64,000 nucleotides of DNA. Origin: Promethearchaeia archaeon (GTDB lineage Archaea > Asgardarchaeota > Lokiarchaeia > Sigyniarchaeales > SOKP01). Both the position numbers and the translations under genes were made by a program. The DNA is taken from positions 1 to 64,000 of the forward strand of contig JAHQWH010000226.1 of assembly GCA_029856105.1 (NCBI GenBank). The letters run 5' to 3'. This document shows positions 54,197-64,000 of this stretch, piece after piece. The number at the start of each line of letters is the position of its first letter. Position 1 is the stretch's first letter. The notes below the pieces were generated by a model, which saw only the letters and a list, made by a program, of their open reading frames with translations, made no database searches and had not been told where the DNA came from.

Positions 54197-54874
54197 CTAT
54201 CCTTTAATTTTTTGCTTGAATATATCTATTGTATCTGCGATCTCAGTTAATCTTATTGAAAACTCTTTTGGTTTCAATTTCTTTAAATTTTCGAAATTTT
54301 CAATAATTTCTTTAAATTCGTCAACCCAAATTTTCATAAGCAATTCGCTTTCTTTTCCTTGAATTAGTTTCCTTAAAGATTTGGTTATCGAAATATTAAT
54401 TTTATCCATGAGTTTTTTTTCGTTTACCGTGTATGATATTTTCAAAACATCCTGTTGGGTTTTAAGAGTTTCAACATCTTCTTGCATCTGAGATTTATGT
54501 ATTAGTAGTTGTTCGTTAAATTTATTAATCATATCCATTATGATTTCTTCTTGTGTTTTAATTGTTTGCTCCATCCTTTCTTGATTAAGGGAGATGTCTT
54601 TTTTTATTGCTGTAATTATTTCATTTGCAGATTTTAAAGAAGTCTCTAATTTAATTATTTGATTTGTTAAATTTTGAATAGTTTCAGAGTTTTTTTTTAC
54701 CGAATCTATTTTATCTTGAGCTTTATCAAATCGTTCTTCTAAATTTTTTACTCTTTTTGGCATGTTTTTCAAAGAATTGATTGAGTCGTTTAATTTTTTT
54801 GTTTGCTCAATTAGATTTTGAAAATCCTTAGGGGAGATTTCTTCTAGTTTATCTTTTTTAGGAATTTTGACCAC
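54197..54874 (-). CDS. Coiled-coil protein
   Basis: The 225-residue protein is almost entirely predicted coiled coil, with heptads such as L-N-D-S-I-N-S-L-K-N-M and I-I-K-L-E-T-S-L-K-S-A, and is rich in Lys, Glu and Ile. Its start overlaps the end of the GTPase gene by 17 bases, so translation is probably coupled. It is likely an effector, tether or filament-forming partner of that GTPase. The start is a GTG inside G-G-G-T-G-G-T-C, a sequence that itself resembles a ribosome binding site; an ATT three codons later is another candidate. Confidence 0.75.
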   Translation of the reverse strand: MVKIPKKDKLEEISPKDFQNLIEQTKKLNDSINSLKNMPKRVKNLEERFDKAQDKIDSVKKNSETIQNLTNQIIKLETSLKSANEIITAIKKDISLNQERMEQTIKTQEEIIMDMINKFNEQLLIHKSQMQEDVETLKTQQDVLKISYTVNEKKLMDKINISITKSLRKLIQGKESELLMKIWVDEFKEIIENFENLKKLKPKEFSIRLTEIADTIDIFKQKIKG

Positions 54875-55871
54875 CCTTTATGACTTTTTCAGCTTTAGTA
54901 TTACTAACATCTTCGATTGATTGTAGCTCTAAAATCGAGTCGAGTTTTAATTTGAAATCTTCTTTAAAATTTGTTAGATCATCTAATGTTTTGTCTATAT
55001 TAACTATAAGTGAATCAATTGGACTTTTTTTTAATTTATTAATTATATCTGAAATCATCGCTATGTTATTACCGAACGCATTAACAATATTTTCCTTAAT
55101 TTGGTTAACATCGATGTCGCTTTCGCTAATTTTTTTAAGATCATTGATTTCTTTAAGAGTGACTATATCATTTTCAGAAGATTTTATATTTTTCTTTATA
55201 ATTTTAGGAGTTATAATTCTATGAAGCTTACTTGGATCGATTTCTTCTAAATTAATAATTAATTCTTGCAATTCTTTGTCATTTTTCTTAATCAAGTCAA
55301 GAAATTGCTCGGAAACTCTTTTAAATTGTATATCATTGCTTTCTTCTTCTAACTTTTTCAGATAGTCTAATACAACCAAAGAAAATACCTCAGAAATATT
55401 ATCTTGAGACTTCGCTGATACGAAAATAATGGGATAACCTTCGATTTGGTATTGGCGTATATTGTTTAAGAGAATCTCAAATTCTTCTGGTTTTATCAAA
55501 TCTGATTTGTTTCCAATTAAATAGGTGATACAATCAGGAGAAAAATTAGATAAGTTCTTTAGATATGTTTTTTTGATTTCTTGTAACGTTTCTTTCGGAT
55601 TGCTTAAGTCAAAAATCAAAAAAGCTACATCTAAATTACTGAAAAACACTGGATTCAGGGGGTTAAAGCTTCTTTGGCCCCCAATATCCCAAATATTCAA
55701 CCTAATATGAATATCATTTAACTTATACTCTTTTCTTGCAATATTAGACCCTATAGTTGGGATGTACATCGAGGGGAATTCTTTACCTACAAAACTATTC
55801 ACTACTGAGGTTTTACCAATGCCCCAAAGTCCTACGATAGTAAGTTTGATGTTTATCTCAGAGACAATCAT
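54858..55871 (-). CDS. Arf/Rab-like small GTPase with helical C-terminal extension
   Basis: The first 165 residues form a small GTPase: P-loop G-L-W-G-I-G-K-T-S (14-22), switch I Thr in P-T-I-G, G3 W-D-I-G-G-Q (61-66), G4 N-K-S-D (121-124) and G5 S-A-K (152-154). Gly-Gly-Gln in G3 is Arf-like, while the switch I T-I-G resembles Rab/Ras. A helical extension of about 170 residues follows, without Cys at the end, so no prenylation signal is visible. It would cycle between GTP and GDP forms and recruit effectors. The next gene on the strand overlaps it and encodes a coiled-coil protein. Confidence 0.9.
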   Translation of the reverse strand: MIVSEINIKLTIVGLWGIGKTSVVNSFVGKEFPSMYIPTIGSNIARKEYKLNDIHIRLNIWDIGGQRSFNPLNPVFFSNLDVAFLIFDLSNPKETLQEIKKTYLKNLSNFSPDCITYLIGNKSDLIKPEEFEILLNNIRQYQIEGYPIIFVSAKSQDNISEVFSLVVLDYLKKLEEESNDIQFKRVSEQFLDLIKKNDKELQELIINLEEIDPSKLHRIITPKIIKKNIKSSENDIVTLKEINDLKKISESDIDVNQIKENIVNAFGNNIAMISDIINKLKKSPIDSLIVNIDKTLDDLTNFKEDFKLKLDSILELQSIEDVSNTKAEKVIKGGQNS

Positions 55872-55950
55872 AATTGCTCACTTGATAAAAAATATTTGAC
55901 AATTTAATAGAATATAACAAGAGGTTTATTTAAATATGCTCAATCGAAAA

Positions 55951-58353: not shown

Positions 58354-58704
58354 GTGTCTTACGACTCAGAGAATTTGATAGTTATTTCTTTTGTTGGAAT
58401 ATACATATTAATTGTTCTTATACTTATCATTAGGGGAAAAAAAGAAAACAGAAATTTAGTAATTCAAATTTTGCTTATTTCTGCTCTTATTTTTATAAAC
58501 TCGTTTATTCGATTTCCTATATTTAACTTTATTATTTTAATAACTATAGTTGCTTTGTTTTGTTATATATTAGTAGCATTACTTAAACCATATGTGTTAG
58601 TCAAAAAAGAGAAAGATTCGTTCTTAAAATTAGATAAAAGTATAAATGAAAATACTGAAAACTCTAATTCTTCAAATGAAAACGCCATAAATGGGGGGGA
58701 TTAA
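58354..58704 (+). CDS. Small membrane protein preceding the NuoN-like gene
   Basis: The 116-residue protein has three hydrophobic helices (about residues 8-26, 35-55 and 58-80) and a hydrophilic Asn/Ser/Glu-rich tail. It overlaps the next gene by 14 bases, so the two are likely translated together. The start is GTG. No family is recognised; the position suggests a small subunit of the same membrane complex. Confidence 0.65.
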   Translation: MSYDSENLIVISFVGIYILIVLILIIRGKKENRNLVIQILLISALIFINSFIRFPIFNFIILITIVALFCYILVALLKPYVLVKKEKDSFLKLDKSINENTENSNSSNENAINGGD

Positions 58705-60190
58705 TATAACAAACATAATTACAGCTTTAGCACCTTTAATCCCTATGTATGTCCTTTTCTTTGGGGCTTTTGTCGCATATATCTTACAAAGTGATGTTAA
58801 AAGGAAACAGGTGATTTTTGGATTATTGTTTTTCAATTTAGTTCTTAATTCATTTTTGTGTGTAATGCACATTTTTTATTATTTTAATGGTTCAAATTTA
58901 AAAGGTACATACATAACAATCGAACTGATACTTATTTTTGGTTTAATTGCAACCCAGTTTTCTAATAATCAACTAAAAGATTCTCCAAATAAAAGTTTAT
59001 ATGATTTTCTTGTGCTAATCATTATATTTGGGTTAATTGGAATCGTTTTAACGACAAATATAATGTCCACCGTTTTATGGTTTCTGTTCCTCTCTCTAAT
59101 TTTTGGCGTAATCTTCTTCATCGATAATTTCAAAAAAGAGTTAGAATTGTTAAAATTCTATTTTATTGTTCTAATCATCAGCGCAATTTGCTTGATAGGA
59201 GCAACAATTTTAATTTATTTAGCAACTGGAAGTCTAGAATTAGACGTAATAAATGGAATTCAAATCTCCGAAGAGCTCAATAATTTTATCTCAGTCACTT
59301 TATTCTTAGGAATTGGTTTATTATGTGGTTTGGTTCCTTTCTCAATATTTCATTTGAAAAATTATTTTCAAGATAATTCATACGCTAACTTGCTTCTTTT
59401 TACAATTTTTATTTACATTATCTCTTTTATTGCGATTAGAATTCTTAATGTCTTAAGTTACGAGTCGTTGTTAGTCAGTTTTGCGCTAATGACTCTTTTA
59501 ATTCTGGGGATAATATTATCTATGGTTTATATTATAATAGAATTATTTACCCACATAGATGGAAATACATATTCTATTAAAAAAATATTTGGATATTCGG
59601 TTGTATTAGATTTTAACATGGTTTTAATATTCGTTGTGTTTTCTAATCTACTAACTACTCCTTTAAATGAGATTTTTCTAAATTCTATAATTTATTTCTT
59701 ACTGACTATTTTTTCGGTTAAAATGTTAATTTTTTTTACTTTCTATCCCGTCACAATTAATACTGACGAAGATAACATGAAGTTATTAGGTGGCTTTAAG
59801 AACGAGTATAGAAAGTTTGGTACGGCTTTATTAGTTTCGGGTTTAATTATTATTGTTTTATTAGGCTTTTTGTTTTTAAATAATACTTTACCTATACTAT
59901 TTAGTTATGAAATTACTTCTAATTCTTTATATTCATTGACAGCAAGTTTTGTCCTAACGGTTTATGTTCTATTTTTAATAATGGTTCTTATTTTTATATC
60001 TATAAATTTCAATCACTTATATAACCAGAATGAACCTCAATATATACAAAGGGATAGTGCGAAAAATATACGTTCAATTGATTTTATGCCTATTATGATC
60101 CTTTTAATTATAATTATTTGTCTCAGTTTAAGCTATATCTTTATTGGCAACTTTTATTACGATTTATTCAAAGATTTCTTTTATTTTTAA
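58691..60190 (+). CDS. NuoN/Mrp antiporter-like membrane protein, degenerate
   Basis: The 499-residue protein has about fourteen membrane helices. A central segment, G-L-V-P-F-S-I-F-H-L-K-N-Y-F, fits the G-x-x-P-F-H-x-W motif of proton-pumping NADH dehydrogenase and Mrp antiporter subunits. The lysine and glutamate needed for proton transfer in those subunits seem to be missing: the equivalent TM5 segment is L-W-F-L-F-L-S-L. It may be an inactive structural or ion-specialised relative. The gene overlaps the previous one, and no other respiratory gene lies nearby, so the complex it belongs to is unknown. Confidence 0.6.
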   Translation: MGGINITNIITALAPLIPMYVLFFGAFVAYILQSDVKRKQVIFGLLFFNLVLNSFLCVMHIFYYFNGSNLKGTYITIELILIFGLIATQFSNNQLKDSPNKSLYDFLVLIIIFGLIGIVLTTNIMSTVLWFLFLSLIFGVIFFIDNFKKELELLKFYFIVLIISAICLIGATILIYLATGSLELDVINGIQISEELNNFISVTLFLGIGLLCGLVPFSIFHLKNYFQDNSYANLLLFTIFIYIISFIAIRILNVLSYESLLVSFALMTLLILGIILSMVYIIIELFTHIDGNTYSIKKIFGYSVVLDFNMVLIFVVFSNLLTTPLNEIFLNSIIYFLLTIFSVKMLIFFTFYPVTINTDEDNMKLLGGFKNEYRKFGTALLVSGLIIIVLLGFLFLNNTLPILFSYEITSNSLYSLTASFVLTVYVLFLIMVLIFISINFNHLYNQNEPQYIQRDSAKNIRSIDFMPIMILLIIIICLSLSYIFIGNFYYDLFKDFFYF

Positions 60191-60220: not shown

Positions 60221-61732
60221 CTATACAGAGTCGTGTTTCACAAATATTTCAGCTGCGAATTCGACATCCTCTATAGTAAGAGGTCTTGCCATGGTTTTTT
60301 GTAGCTCGGTTATCAATTGTAGGCATAACTCTAAGCTTAGCGAACTACCTTTCTTTTCGATCGTCCTTTGAAGCGTGCTTGATAATTCCTCACCAATCTT
60401 TCTCTCTTCAAGTATAGGTCGTTTTTCTTCAGGAATAACCAAATTTATATCAAGCGTGATATCTTCTTTGTCCAATTCAGCTTCTTTTGACTCAACCGTA
60501 GAATCAGATTTTGAAAATAACATTAAATCCTCAGCCTTTTTCTCTATTTTTTGCGATTTTTGAGCTCTATAAGTAGTTTTTGGTACTTCTGCTGATGGTG
60601 GCGCTTTTACATCTGATTTACTTGAAGGTAAAGGTTGTACTTTAATACTTTTAGAGAACTGAATTTTTCCCGGGATTTCAAATTTCATTTTCTTATCTGC
60701 TTTTTTTCTTAGTTCAGCTTGCTCGGCTACTTTTTTTTGTAACTCATCTAAATTTTTCTTGAGCTTGTTTATGTAAGTAAAATCTTGATAGTTGTTACAT
60801 ATTTTTATCAATTCTTTATACTTAGAAATAGCGAGTATTAAGTTTCCCTCTCTTTTTAGATTTTCTGCTTCATTCAACAATTCTGTAAAATAATGAGGTA
60901 ATAGTTTTTTTAAACTCAGCATTTTAGCAATTAAAGATTTGATTTTTTCTTTAATGTTCGCTTCGATTAAAGAAATTTCTTCGAAATGTGGAATGTCTAA
61001 TTCGTTCTTTATGAGTTTAATATCTTCATCTTCAACTAAGTCGCGCTTAGTTCCGAGAATCAGTAATTTTGAGAATTTGCTTTCTTGCTTTTGCAAGTTT
61101 AGGAAGTGATTAATCACTCGTAAATGGTAATTTGATAAATCAAATAGTAGGATGACCAAATCGGAGCCTTTTATAAATTTTGACCACATGAGCGAGAAGT
61201 TATCATTAAGGGCAAAATCCCAAATATCAAATTTCAGGTTGTCAACCATATACTCAGAAGTTCTAGCAAAATTCATGATTGCGCGCTCCTTACCACCTCT
61301 CAGCATAGTATAAAGCAAAGTTTTTCCTGAATGAGTTGGACCTATTATTGTAATTTTTGAGTGTAATTCGTATTGCTGTTCTCTTAAAAAGTCTACAAAT
61401 TCTCGCTTATTTTCACTTGAATTTTTTATATCTATCGGGTTTGGGAACAATTCTTTAAAATTTTTAGCCGTATTCTCTATCGTGGGACCGACATAATCAA
61501 GACTGTCTACCAAGTCGGTTATAAATAAGAATAGTACATTCCCCTCTGATTTGTGAAATATTTGAAAGTGTTCTGATACCGGTCGATGAAATATTTTACC
61601 GGGTATTGGCATTTCGATGAAGGATTGAATAATCTTTGTTACGTTATTCAACTCATCTTCTGCTAAAGCTAAAGCGTATGTATGATTGTAAATGCACTCA
61701 TTCATATGAAAAATGTGAATTTGTCGAAGCAA
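60221..61732 (-). CDS. Longin-like domain fused to an Arf-like GTPase
   Basis: The 503-residue protein has an N-terminal longin/roadblock-type domain (residues 1-100: I-H-I-F-H-M-N-E-C-I-Y, then L-F-L-F-I-T-D). A GTPase domain (about 122-275) follows with P-loop G-P-T-H-S-G-K-T (131-138) and G4 T-K-R-D (228-231). Its G3 box reads W-D-F-A-L-N instead of W-D-x-G-G-Q. A TPR-like helical pair (280-345), a disordered Lys/Ser/Pro-rich linker and a C-terminal helical segment complete it. Longin domains bind small GTPases in eukaryotic trafficking. Hydrolysis is probably impaired or altered. AGAGGAAG before the TTG supports the start. Confidence 0.85.
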   Translation of the reverse strand: MLRQIHIFHMNECIYNHTYALALAEDELNNVTKIIQSFIEMPIPGKIFHRPVSEHFQIFHKSEGNVLFLFITDLVDSLDYVGPTIENTAKNFKELFPNPIDIKNSSENKREFVDFLREQQYELHSKITIIGPTHSGKTLLYTMLRGGKERAIMNFARTSEYMVDNLKFDIWDFALNDNFSLMWSKFIKGSDLVILLFDLSNYHLRVINHFLNLQKQESKFSKLLILGTKRDLVEDEDIKLIKNELDIPHFEEISLIEANIKEKIKSLIAKMLSLKKLLPHYFTELLNEAENLKREGNLILAISKYKELIKICNNYQDFTYINKLKKNLDELQKKVAEQAELRKKADKKMKFEIPGKIQFSKSIKVQPLPSSKSDVKAPPSAEVPKTTYRAQKSQKIEKKAEDLMLFSKSDSTVESKEAELDKEDITLDINLVIPEEKRPILEERKIGEELSSTLQRTIEKKGSSLSLELCLQLITELQKTMARPLTIEDVEFAAEIFVKHDSV

Positions 61733-62114: not shown

Positions 62115-63071
62115 ATGCCCTTGGAACAAAATCACGTTGAAAATTTTCTCAAGAATAATTCAAATCCTAAACATAAATCTGAATTATTCAATCTTCTTAG
62201 AGAAAGGATTGATGACTTATGTGATATTTGTTCAAAAGATCGAATCCGAAATGTATTAAACCCAATGTGTTATCATCGGTTTTTACTTGCGCTAAGACTC
62301 TTGAACGGTCTAGGAATTGAAGATCAACCTGAATTCTGTTACGGTGTTCACAAGGATATAGTTTTTCGGGATTTTAGGAATAAAACGGTAATCTACAAGC
62401 CAAACGATGCGTATTTGTATTTAATAGATTTCTTTGATGTTTTTTTCCACGGTGATTATAGAAAACTCAACAAATTCTTTTCTAAAAAAGATTTTAAAGA
62501 AACCAATAAAATTTTTGACGATAGAATAAATAATAGAGATGAGCACTTTCAATATCTATTAACCGATGATAAAAGTTTTATGTTATTCAAATACGATGAA
62601 AGGATTCATGTTGCTTTTATTAAGGAGAATTACGCTCTCTGCAACGCTAATAGAGAAAACATTACAGATTTAGAACTCTTACTAGGATTATGCAAACTCT
62701 TCGCACGAATTTATTTTCCAGAAATAAAGTTAAAATTAATCCCAAATGACTGCGTTGAGATTAAAACCATTATTCCAAAAGAGGCACTTCAAAAAATTAG
62801 CCCTACAGAACCTACAGAAGAAGACTCTAAACGAGATAAATACATATGGAATGTTTTCCCTAGTGAACTTGATACGTTAAGTCAATTTTCTAAAGAAATA
62901 AACATATATTTAGATAAAAAGAAAAATTTGGCAATAAGATTACATATTGGCATAGAATCTGAGGGCATCTTCAATCGATCTAAACGCATGTTATTACGAT
63001 ATCGAGATTTAAGATTAATATTTAACATTCTTTATCGGTTGTACAACGATTTCTATATACTACATATTTAA
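62115..63071 (+). CDS. Protein of unknown function
   Basis: The 318-residue protein is soluble, with mixed charge and several aromatic residues. Cys clusters occur in L-C-D-I-C-S (about residue 36-41) and N-P-M-C-Y-H (about 49-54). A hydrophobic, alpha/beta-looking middle (residues 120-220) is followed by an acidic linker and a C-terminal region with Y-R-D-L-R-L-I-F-N-I-L-Y-R-L. No conserved family motif is recognised. The HEAT/coiled-coil gene begins 49 bases downstream with its own TATA-like element, so the two are probably separately transcribed although on the same strand. Confidence 0.6.
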   Translation: MPLEQNHVENFLKNNSNPKHKSELFNLLRERIDDLCDICSKDRIRNVLNPMCYHRFLLALRLLNGLGIEDQPEFCYGVHKDIVFRDFRNKTVIYKPNDAYLYLIDFFDVFFHGDYRKLNKFFSKKDFKETNKIFDDRINNRDEHFQYLLTDDKSFMLFKYDERIHVAFIKENYALCNANRENITDLELLLGLCKLFARIYFPEIKLKLIPNDCVEIKTIIPKEALQKISPTEPTEEDSKRDKYIWNVFPSELDTLSQFSKEINIYLDKKKNLAIRLHIGIESEGIFNRSKRMLLRYRDLRLIFNILYRLYNDFYILHI

Positions 63072-63090: not shown

Positions 63091-63120
63091 TCAAAAAAAA
63101 ATAGTTTTAAGTTGGTTAAA

Positions 63121-64000
63121 ATGAGCGAAAAAGATCAAAAAAATCCCGAAATTACCAAGATAAAAGATTTCGTGAAAGATGGTAGAATAGACGATGCAGT
63201 TAAAATTATTGCACTCTATCTTGGAGATTCAACTCAAGAAAATAATATAGAAAGACTTGAAGATATAATCGAAATGCTTTTGTCGCTCCATGGTGGACAA
63301 ACCGTCTTAAGATCTCTAATAGAGCAATTAGTTATTGACATCCCATCTTTATTAGAGAATCTCTCAAAACGCGATTCTGTCTTAAGATATAGCTTTCTTT
63401 TGCTCTTGAAGACGATGTGTGAGCAAGAATGTTCTATTTTTCTTCCCTATAGTGAAGATTTGTTAAGTTCTGAAGACCCAAACGTTAGAGAAGCCGTTCT
63501 ACAGCTCATAATTTTTATGGCGGGAGGAGAAGAATACATCGAGGACGAATCGTTGATTGGAAAGATCGCTAAAGCTTTAACTGATGAAAAAGAATTCGTA
63601 GTTGAGAAAGCAGTTCAAGCGTTAAAAATTATAGGTGGAAATAATCCATCCTTAGTCACCAAAATGATTACTCAAAATGTTAAAGAAAATCCAGAAAACG
63701 ATGAATTAAAAAGAATTGTGGACAATGTGCTAAAATCAGTTGTTACAATTGAGAGGATCGATGAATTAGTAGAAGAGAGTGAGAAAAGAGAGATTACAGA
63801 TGAGGAATTAATAGAAAAAGAAGAGTCAGACATAATCGATAAGGAACTCGAACTAAAGAAAAAAGAAATAGAAATTAAAAAGAAAAAGTTAGAATTAGAA
63901 GAGAAAGAAAAAGAAATAGAAAAAAAAATTATTCAAGAAAAGGAAAAAACGCTAAAATTAAAAGAAGATCTCATTGAACAAGAGAGTAAAGAACAACCTG
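63121..64000 (+). CDS. HEAT-repeat/coiled-coil protein, truncated by the window end
   Basis: The frame opens at an ATG (M-S-E-K-D-Q-K) and remains open to the last base, so only the first 293 codons are visible. Residues 10-205 look like HEAT-type helical repeats (V-R-E-A-V-L-Q-L-I, V-V-E-K-A-V-Q-A-L-K-I-I). From about 215 on the sequence becomes a highly charged Lys/Glu coiled coil (repeats like K-K-K-E-I-E-I-K). It is probably a cytosolic scaffold. The C-terminal part lies outside the window, so the final domain is unknown. Confidence 0.8.
   Translation, partial: MSEKDQKNPEITKIKDFVKDGRIDDAVKIIALYLGDSTQENNIERLEDIIEMLLSLHGGQTVLRSLIEQLVIDIPSLLENLSKRDSVLRYSFLLLLKTMCEQECSIFLPYSEDLLSSEDPNVREAVLQLIIFMAGGEEYIEDESLIGKIAKALTDEKEFVVEKAVQALKIIGGNNPSLVTKMITQNVKENPENDELKRIVDNVLKSVVTIERIDELVEESEKREITDEELIEKEESDIIDKELELKKKEIEIKKKKLELEEKEKEIEKKIIQEKEKTLKLKEDLIEQESKEQP

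Follow-up and report, generated by a model that had tools for sequence, protein, structure and literature searches.

Gene A of the window (the whole 64,000-nucleotide stretch of DNA analysed here) encodes a longin domain of the membrane-traffic type and an Arf/Ras-like G domain in one chain, and its motifs place it in a clade of GTPases with a rebuilt switch that is almost certainly unable to cut GTP. Across the sequences compared, the missing G3 Gly and Gln are a clade-wide feature and no local accident. The longin-GTPase fusion as such has been published, in 2016 and 2024; new here are the conserved pseudoGTPase subfamily, its folded C-terminal helical domain and its linkage to two neighbouring genes, B and C.

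Results

Gene A encodes a longin domain and a G domain in a single chain

Full-length conservation of gene A in about 60 genomes rules out a chance open reading frame. The start codon is TTG, replaced by ATG in most orthologs. In three orthologs (L017, L018 and L023), the frame opens with ATA directly after a purine-rich GAGGAG stretch; this ATA, where other orthologs carry ATG or TTG, is possibly a start codon. The host genome comprises 3.66 Mb with 67 Arf-family matches, and its named relatives are Lokiarchaeia MAGs. The gene and the parts of its product are as follows:

60221..61732, minus strand: longin-pseudoGTPase gene A, 503 aa, TTG start (open reading frame; orthologs 30-91% identical across Lokiarchaeia)
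61367..61732, minus strand: longin domain, residues 1-122 (AF2 pLDDT 91; best PDB matches longins; Pfam Longin in 5/59 orthologs)
60908..61363, minus strand: Arf/Ras-like pseudoGTPase domain, residues 124-275 (Pfam Ras/Arf/Roc; PDB small GTPases with Z ~15-16 over residues 116-276)
61319..61342, minus strand: P-loop (G1) GPTHSGKT, residues 131-138 (column counts in 59 orthologs)
61253..61288, minus strand: altered switch I (ERAIMNFARTSE), without the canonical PT (column counts; paralogs carry PTITGDI here)
61184..61222, minus strand: altered G3/switch II WDFALNDNFSLMW, residues 171-183 (ortholog column counts; dN/dS)
61040..61051, minus strand: G4 TKRD, residues 228-231, Asn replaced by Thr in the window lineage (ortholog column counts)
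60683..60892, minus strand: helical hairpin and long helix, residues 281-350 (AF2 secondary structure)
60623..60676, minus strand: conserved linear motif PxxIxFxKxxxVKxLP, residues 353-370 (conservation; retained in the shortened copy of genome G026)
60401..60619, minus strand: disordered linker, residues 372-444 (pLDDT < 50)
60224..60400, minus strand: folded C-terminal three-helix domain, residues 445-503 (pLDDT ~90; conserved in orthologs)

The AlphaFold model of full-length A, computed with 59 orthologs (pLDDT 79.7, pTM 0.61), is laid out as longin (2-122), G domain (126-271), helices (281-350), disorder (372-444) and three helices (444-502). A preliminary description of this DNA had proposed a longin and a GTPase in one chain with a P-loop GPTHSGKT, a G3 box WDFALN and a G4 TKRD; all three motifs are present in the open reading frame, and the same fusion was recovered across Lokiarchaeia. 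Its longin-like N-terminal domain is borne out by structure prediction. The longin was folded separately because a PDB search with the whole model gave GTPases only. Residues 1-121 alone were predicted as b-b-a-b-b-b-a-a (pLDDT 91, pTM 0.84), and Foldseek and VIA-align matched this model to AP sigma/mu, VAMP7, COPI zeta/delta, TRAPP, Sec22b and SRX (entries 1nrj_A and 5ck3_E) with Z of 10.4-12.7. A Pfam search of the window protein returned no longin match; among the 59 orthologs, the best of the Longin matches reached 4.1e-5, and four matched Clat_adaptor_s (clathrin adaptor small chain, a longin fold).

The GTPase switch is altered throughout the clade

Residues 120-271 of A match the Pfam Ras, Arf and Roc profiles (5.9e-8 to 1.4e-7, Ras and Arf above cut-off), and an NCBIfam search returned a small_GTP match below cut-off and nothing else. 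G131 of the P-loop is invariant in the 59 orthologs, and G136 and K137 are retained in 57, as is Thr or Ser at position 138. The G3 Asp column holds Asp in 54 orthologs and Asn in 5, and the first position of G4 is Asn in 49/59 and Thr in 7/59. Since the P-loop is mostly intact, nucleotide binding by A is plausible from its sequence. Retention of the P-loop and G4 in most orthologs would be compatible with class ii of the pseudoGTPases, whose members bind nucleotide without catalysis. Order-level relatives are degraded further, with the P-loop gone in L132 and L133 and G4 gone in L131-L135.

Motif comparison found G2 and G3 gone throughout the clade. In switch I, PT is changed to M-[NDE]-F-A and the Thr is thereby replaced. 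The G3 Gly is missing in 58/59 orthologs, the Gln likewise in 58/59, and no ortholog has both; a G3 lacking the two residues, noted earlier for the window protein, thus extends to its whole family. Leu occupies the Gly column in 51/59, the only Gly being that of L132, where Met replaces Gln; the Gln column is mainly Lys or Arg, the only Gln being that of L111, where Leu replaces Gly. The clade therefore lacks both the WDxGGQ G3 and the switch I Thr of the canonical Arf family.

The altered motif WDFxLxDNFS ranks among the best-conserved parts of A in the 59 Lokiarchaeial orthologs. In two groups of close orthologs, dN/dS was 0.093 and 0.024 over residues 165-200, the lowest stretch of the protein, with 0.215 and 0.108 for the whole protein and looser values of 0.52 and 0.20 for the altered switch I. 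Such values in the altered G3/switch II argue against decay, and by these measures the rebuilt switch II is a functional surface.

In a tree inferred with the trait columns removed, the A orthologs formed one clade (100/100, stem 1.83) whose sister is a set of Lokiarchaeal longin-GTPase paralogs with intact WDFAGQE; long stems may mislead as to which group is the precise sister, but all 200 bootstrap trees contain the split. Nearly all of the longin-GTPase paralogs sampled, from the same and other Asgard groups, carry WDFAGQEQFS or a close variant, PT, GFSGVGKT and NKQD. A has the N-terminal longin, the Arf-like domain and the common descent of the Asgard longin-Arf-like fusions, and clade-wide motif loss, together with a single clade sister to intact longin-GTPases, makes it a monophyletic longin-pseudoGTPase family. 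The lesion is ancestral, occurs clade-wide and is under strong purifying selection, which strengthens the earlier proposal of a hydrolysis-deficient scaffold. That proposal had overlooked that the switch I Thr is gone, as well as the linear motif, the C-terminal folded domain and the conserved neighbours of the gene.

The C-terminal half of A

Helices in the region 281-350 were predicted at 281-295, 298-315 and 321-350. This is the section previously called TPR-like; its helices are there, and no Pfam TPR profile matched it. F359, V365, L368 and P369 of the linear motif are near-invariant in orthologs. The supposed long disordered tail is indeed disordered at 372-444 but is not the end of the protein, as a folded domain (444-502) comes after it. 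A sequence search of the PDB with the last 58 residues gave nothing credible. Genome G026 encodes a natural shortened A (L194:421-1011), divergent from B in the usual layout and close to a contig edge, where an assembly error is possible. Because this copy holds only the linear motif, the linker and the C-terminal domain, it suggests that the C-terminal half of A forms an independent unit. The shortened gene is followed by one for a Ras-like GTPase with WDCCGKKAF, its Gln replaced.

Genes adjoining A

Two genes recur beside A, with linkage counts that are not independent of descent and that reflect the joint loss of neighbours from incomplete assemblies:

62115..63071, plus strand: gene B, 318 aa, Cys-rich, no family assigned (near A in 55/60 loci; in 155/227 Asgard genomes)
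63112..64000, continuing beyond the window end, plus strand: gene C, HEAT repeats and coiled coil (HEAT_2 5.6e-6; 53/60 loci; 67/227 genomes)

Among the 227 Asgard genomes, B, which carries conserved Cys residues, is Asgard-wide, and C is limited to the same Lokiarchaeal families as A. The 79 Lokiarchaeales genomes comprise 61 with A and C, 1 with A only, 6 with C only and 11 with neither, an association inflated by relatedness and linked assembly gaps. B and C adjoin A divergently in families f1 and f3 (the latter represented by L177); A, B and C are codirectional in L173 and L174, where adjacency persists after rearrangement. A further gene of the set, D, lies immediately before A in L172, L175 and L176, with B-C located elsewhere, and in relatives of L172 and L175 the B-C pair is located away from A.

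An NCBIfam search with genes B-E gave no match. The PDB search with B produced only weak VPS35 matches (E ~0.03); the matches of C are HEAT-repeat proteins, many of them artificial, and we claim no specific homology. After A-B-C, L173 and L174 carry two unknown genes, a deacetylase that looks PIG-L-like by eye and a gene of the actin family (Pfam Actin, 2.3e-81). The two unknown genes were considered as D and E of family f1 and rejected, as they show no profile similarity. In other Asgard classes (L178-L180, L182, L188-L192), B adjoins a protein of ~1,000-1,734 aa; three of these proteins were checked and combine a TrmB HTH with long apolipoprotein-like helices, and this giant partner has no similarity to A, C or D. 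Elsewhere in the window, two membrane proteins (58354-60190, plus strand) are convergent with A and lie beside it in ~15/60 loci, the larger without a Pfam match. A further Ras-like GTPase of 339 aa with WDIGGQ (54861-55877, minus strand) belongs to a conserved run with CDP-alcohol phosphotransferase-like and carboxypeptidase-like genes.

Discussion

We lean towards reading A as a longin-pseudoGTPase scaffold, dead for hydrolysis, whose complex is stable rather than switching. A longin-Arf-like GTPase would have been duplicated in the lineage toward part of the Lokiarchaeales (families f1-f3); from the duplicate, the Thr of switch I, the Gly of G3 and the catalytic Gln would then have disappeared, and switch II would have been rebuilt into the new conserved surface. 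Such a protein would not hydrolyse GTP, and nucleotide, if bound, would be structural. The longin may cover or brace the pseudo-switch face of its own chain, by analogy with SRX on SR-beta, and the flexible tail and C-terminal helical domain would bring partners into that stable complex, the likeliest being B and the HEAT protein C. Against the scaffold stand a full-model pTM of only 0.61 and the separation of B-C from A in the relatives of L172 and L175; A may also have a residual nucleotide function, since most orthologs keep the P-loop and G4.

It is unlikely that A is a pseudoGTPase binding no nucleotide, with the G fold merely a structural block. The switch I Thr and G3 Gly are gone almost everywhere, the order-level relatives L131-L135 have lost G4 and two of them, L132 and L133, the P-loop, and the window protein has Thr for the G4 Asn; however, drift would have erased G136, K137 and T/S138 as well, which 57/59 orthologs retain, and NKxD, which most retain. 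Some GTPases without the Gln, of the Rap, FeoB and MnmE types, still hydrolyse, and the largely kept P-loop, G3 Asp and G4 would suit a working GTPase that uses other residues or a residue of a partner. Those types keep DxxG, whereas the A clade has another residue, mainly Leu, at the Gly position and also lacks the switch I Thr, and we regard a working GTPase as very improbable. Broken motifs and a G026 copy reduced to the C-terminal part could suggest a gene in decay and without function, or an artefact of assembly; full-length conservation in ~60 genomes and an overall dN/dS of 0.11-0.22 refute this and leave it virtually no chance.

A might instead be an AAGAB/p34-like assembly chaperone, its pseudoGTPase part handling a longin-fold subunit and its C-terminal domain holding a HEAT-repeat subunit during assembly of a coat-like complex. 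The parts correspond (pseudoGTPase, disordered linker, short helical C-terminal domain and a HEAT-repeat neighbour, C), and among the matches of the longin model is the sigma chain of 9ddt, a complex with the AAGAB pseudoGTPase. Yet Adaptin_binding (PF10199), the mark of AAGAB/p34 membership, has no match in A (E up to 1) or in the genome, the longin of A is in cis, and C is a generic rather than a demonstrably adaptin-like HEAT protein. We know of no coat complex in these cells. Taken together, a chaperone of this kind seems quite improbable.

Asgard archaea have dozens of eukaryote-like small GTPases. The strong, clade-wide conservation of a pseudoGTPase with a longin in cis suggests that some of these proteins stopped switching and became structural. 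Our literature search on Asgard longin-GTPase fusions, covering the main texts of articles, found no described pseudoGTPase, and no paper in the literature searched mentions both Asgard archaea and pseudoGTPases. The neighbours of A supply concrete candidate partners in the Cys-rich protein B and the HEAT protein C, and the joint role of longin and GTPase domains in Asgard cells becomes experimentally approachable. We give a slender chance to an Asgard coat- or adaptor-like assembly of longin, pseudoGTPase and HEAT-repeat proteins with A as its assembly chaperone or permanent core; if true, it would be a prokaryotic parallel of AP/COPI-AAGAB logic.

Comparison with known systems

Replacement of the DxxG region also occurs in RGK proteins. 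The Rnd and RGK pseudoGTPases (PMC5593906, Table 2) resemble A in having GTPase folds with altered motifs, and serve a regulatory role; unlike A, they are eukaryotic and of unrelated architecture, without a longin. AAGAB/p34 and yeast Irc6 (PMC12429027, PMC6418106) share with A a pseudoGTPase, a disordered linker and a short helical C-terminal domain. AAGAB handles subunits of the longin (sigma) and HEAT (adaptin) kinds through its pseudoGTPase plus tethered helical domain (PMC12429027), without the longin in cis that A has. SRX-SR-beta of the eukaryotic SRP receptor pairs a longin with an Arf-like GTPase, as in A, but as two separate chains with a nucleotide-responsive GTPase; A is a single chain without an evident tie to protein targeting. 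The likenesses to SRX-SR-beta and AAGAB are analogies.

The closest counterparts in domain order are the Asgard longin-Arf-like fusions. For Lokiarchaeum, five have been described (PMC4917890, Box 1), and roadblock or longin domains are found on 26/74 GTPases of MK-D1 (PMC10933270); the fusion is thus not unusual, contrary to the preliminary description, which took such domains to be usually separate proteins. The fusions sampled retain WDFAGQE, PT and GFSGVGKT, whereas the A clade has lost these and carries a conserved C-terminal domain of its own.
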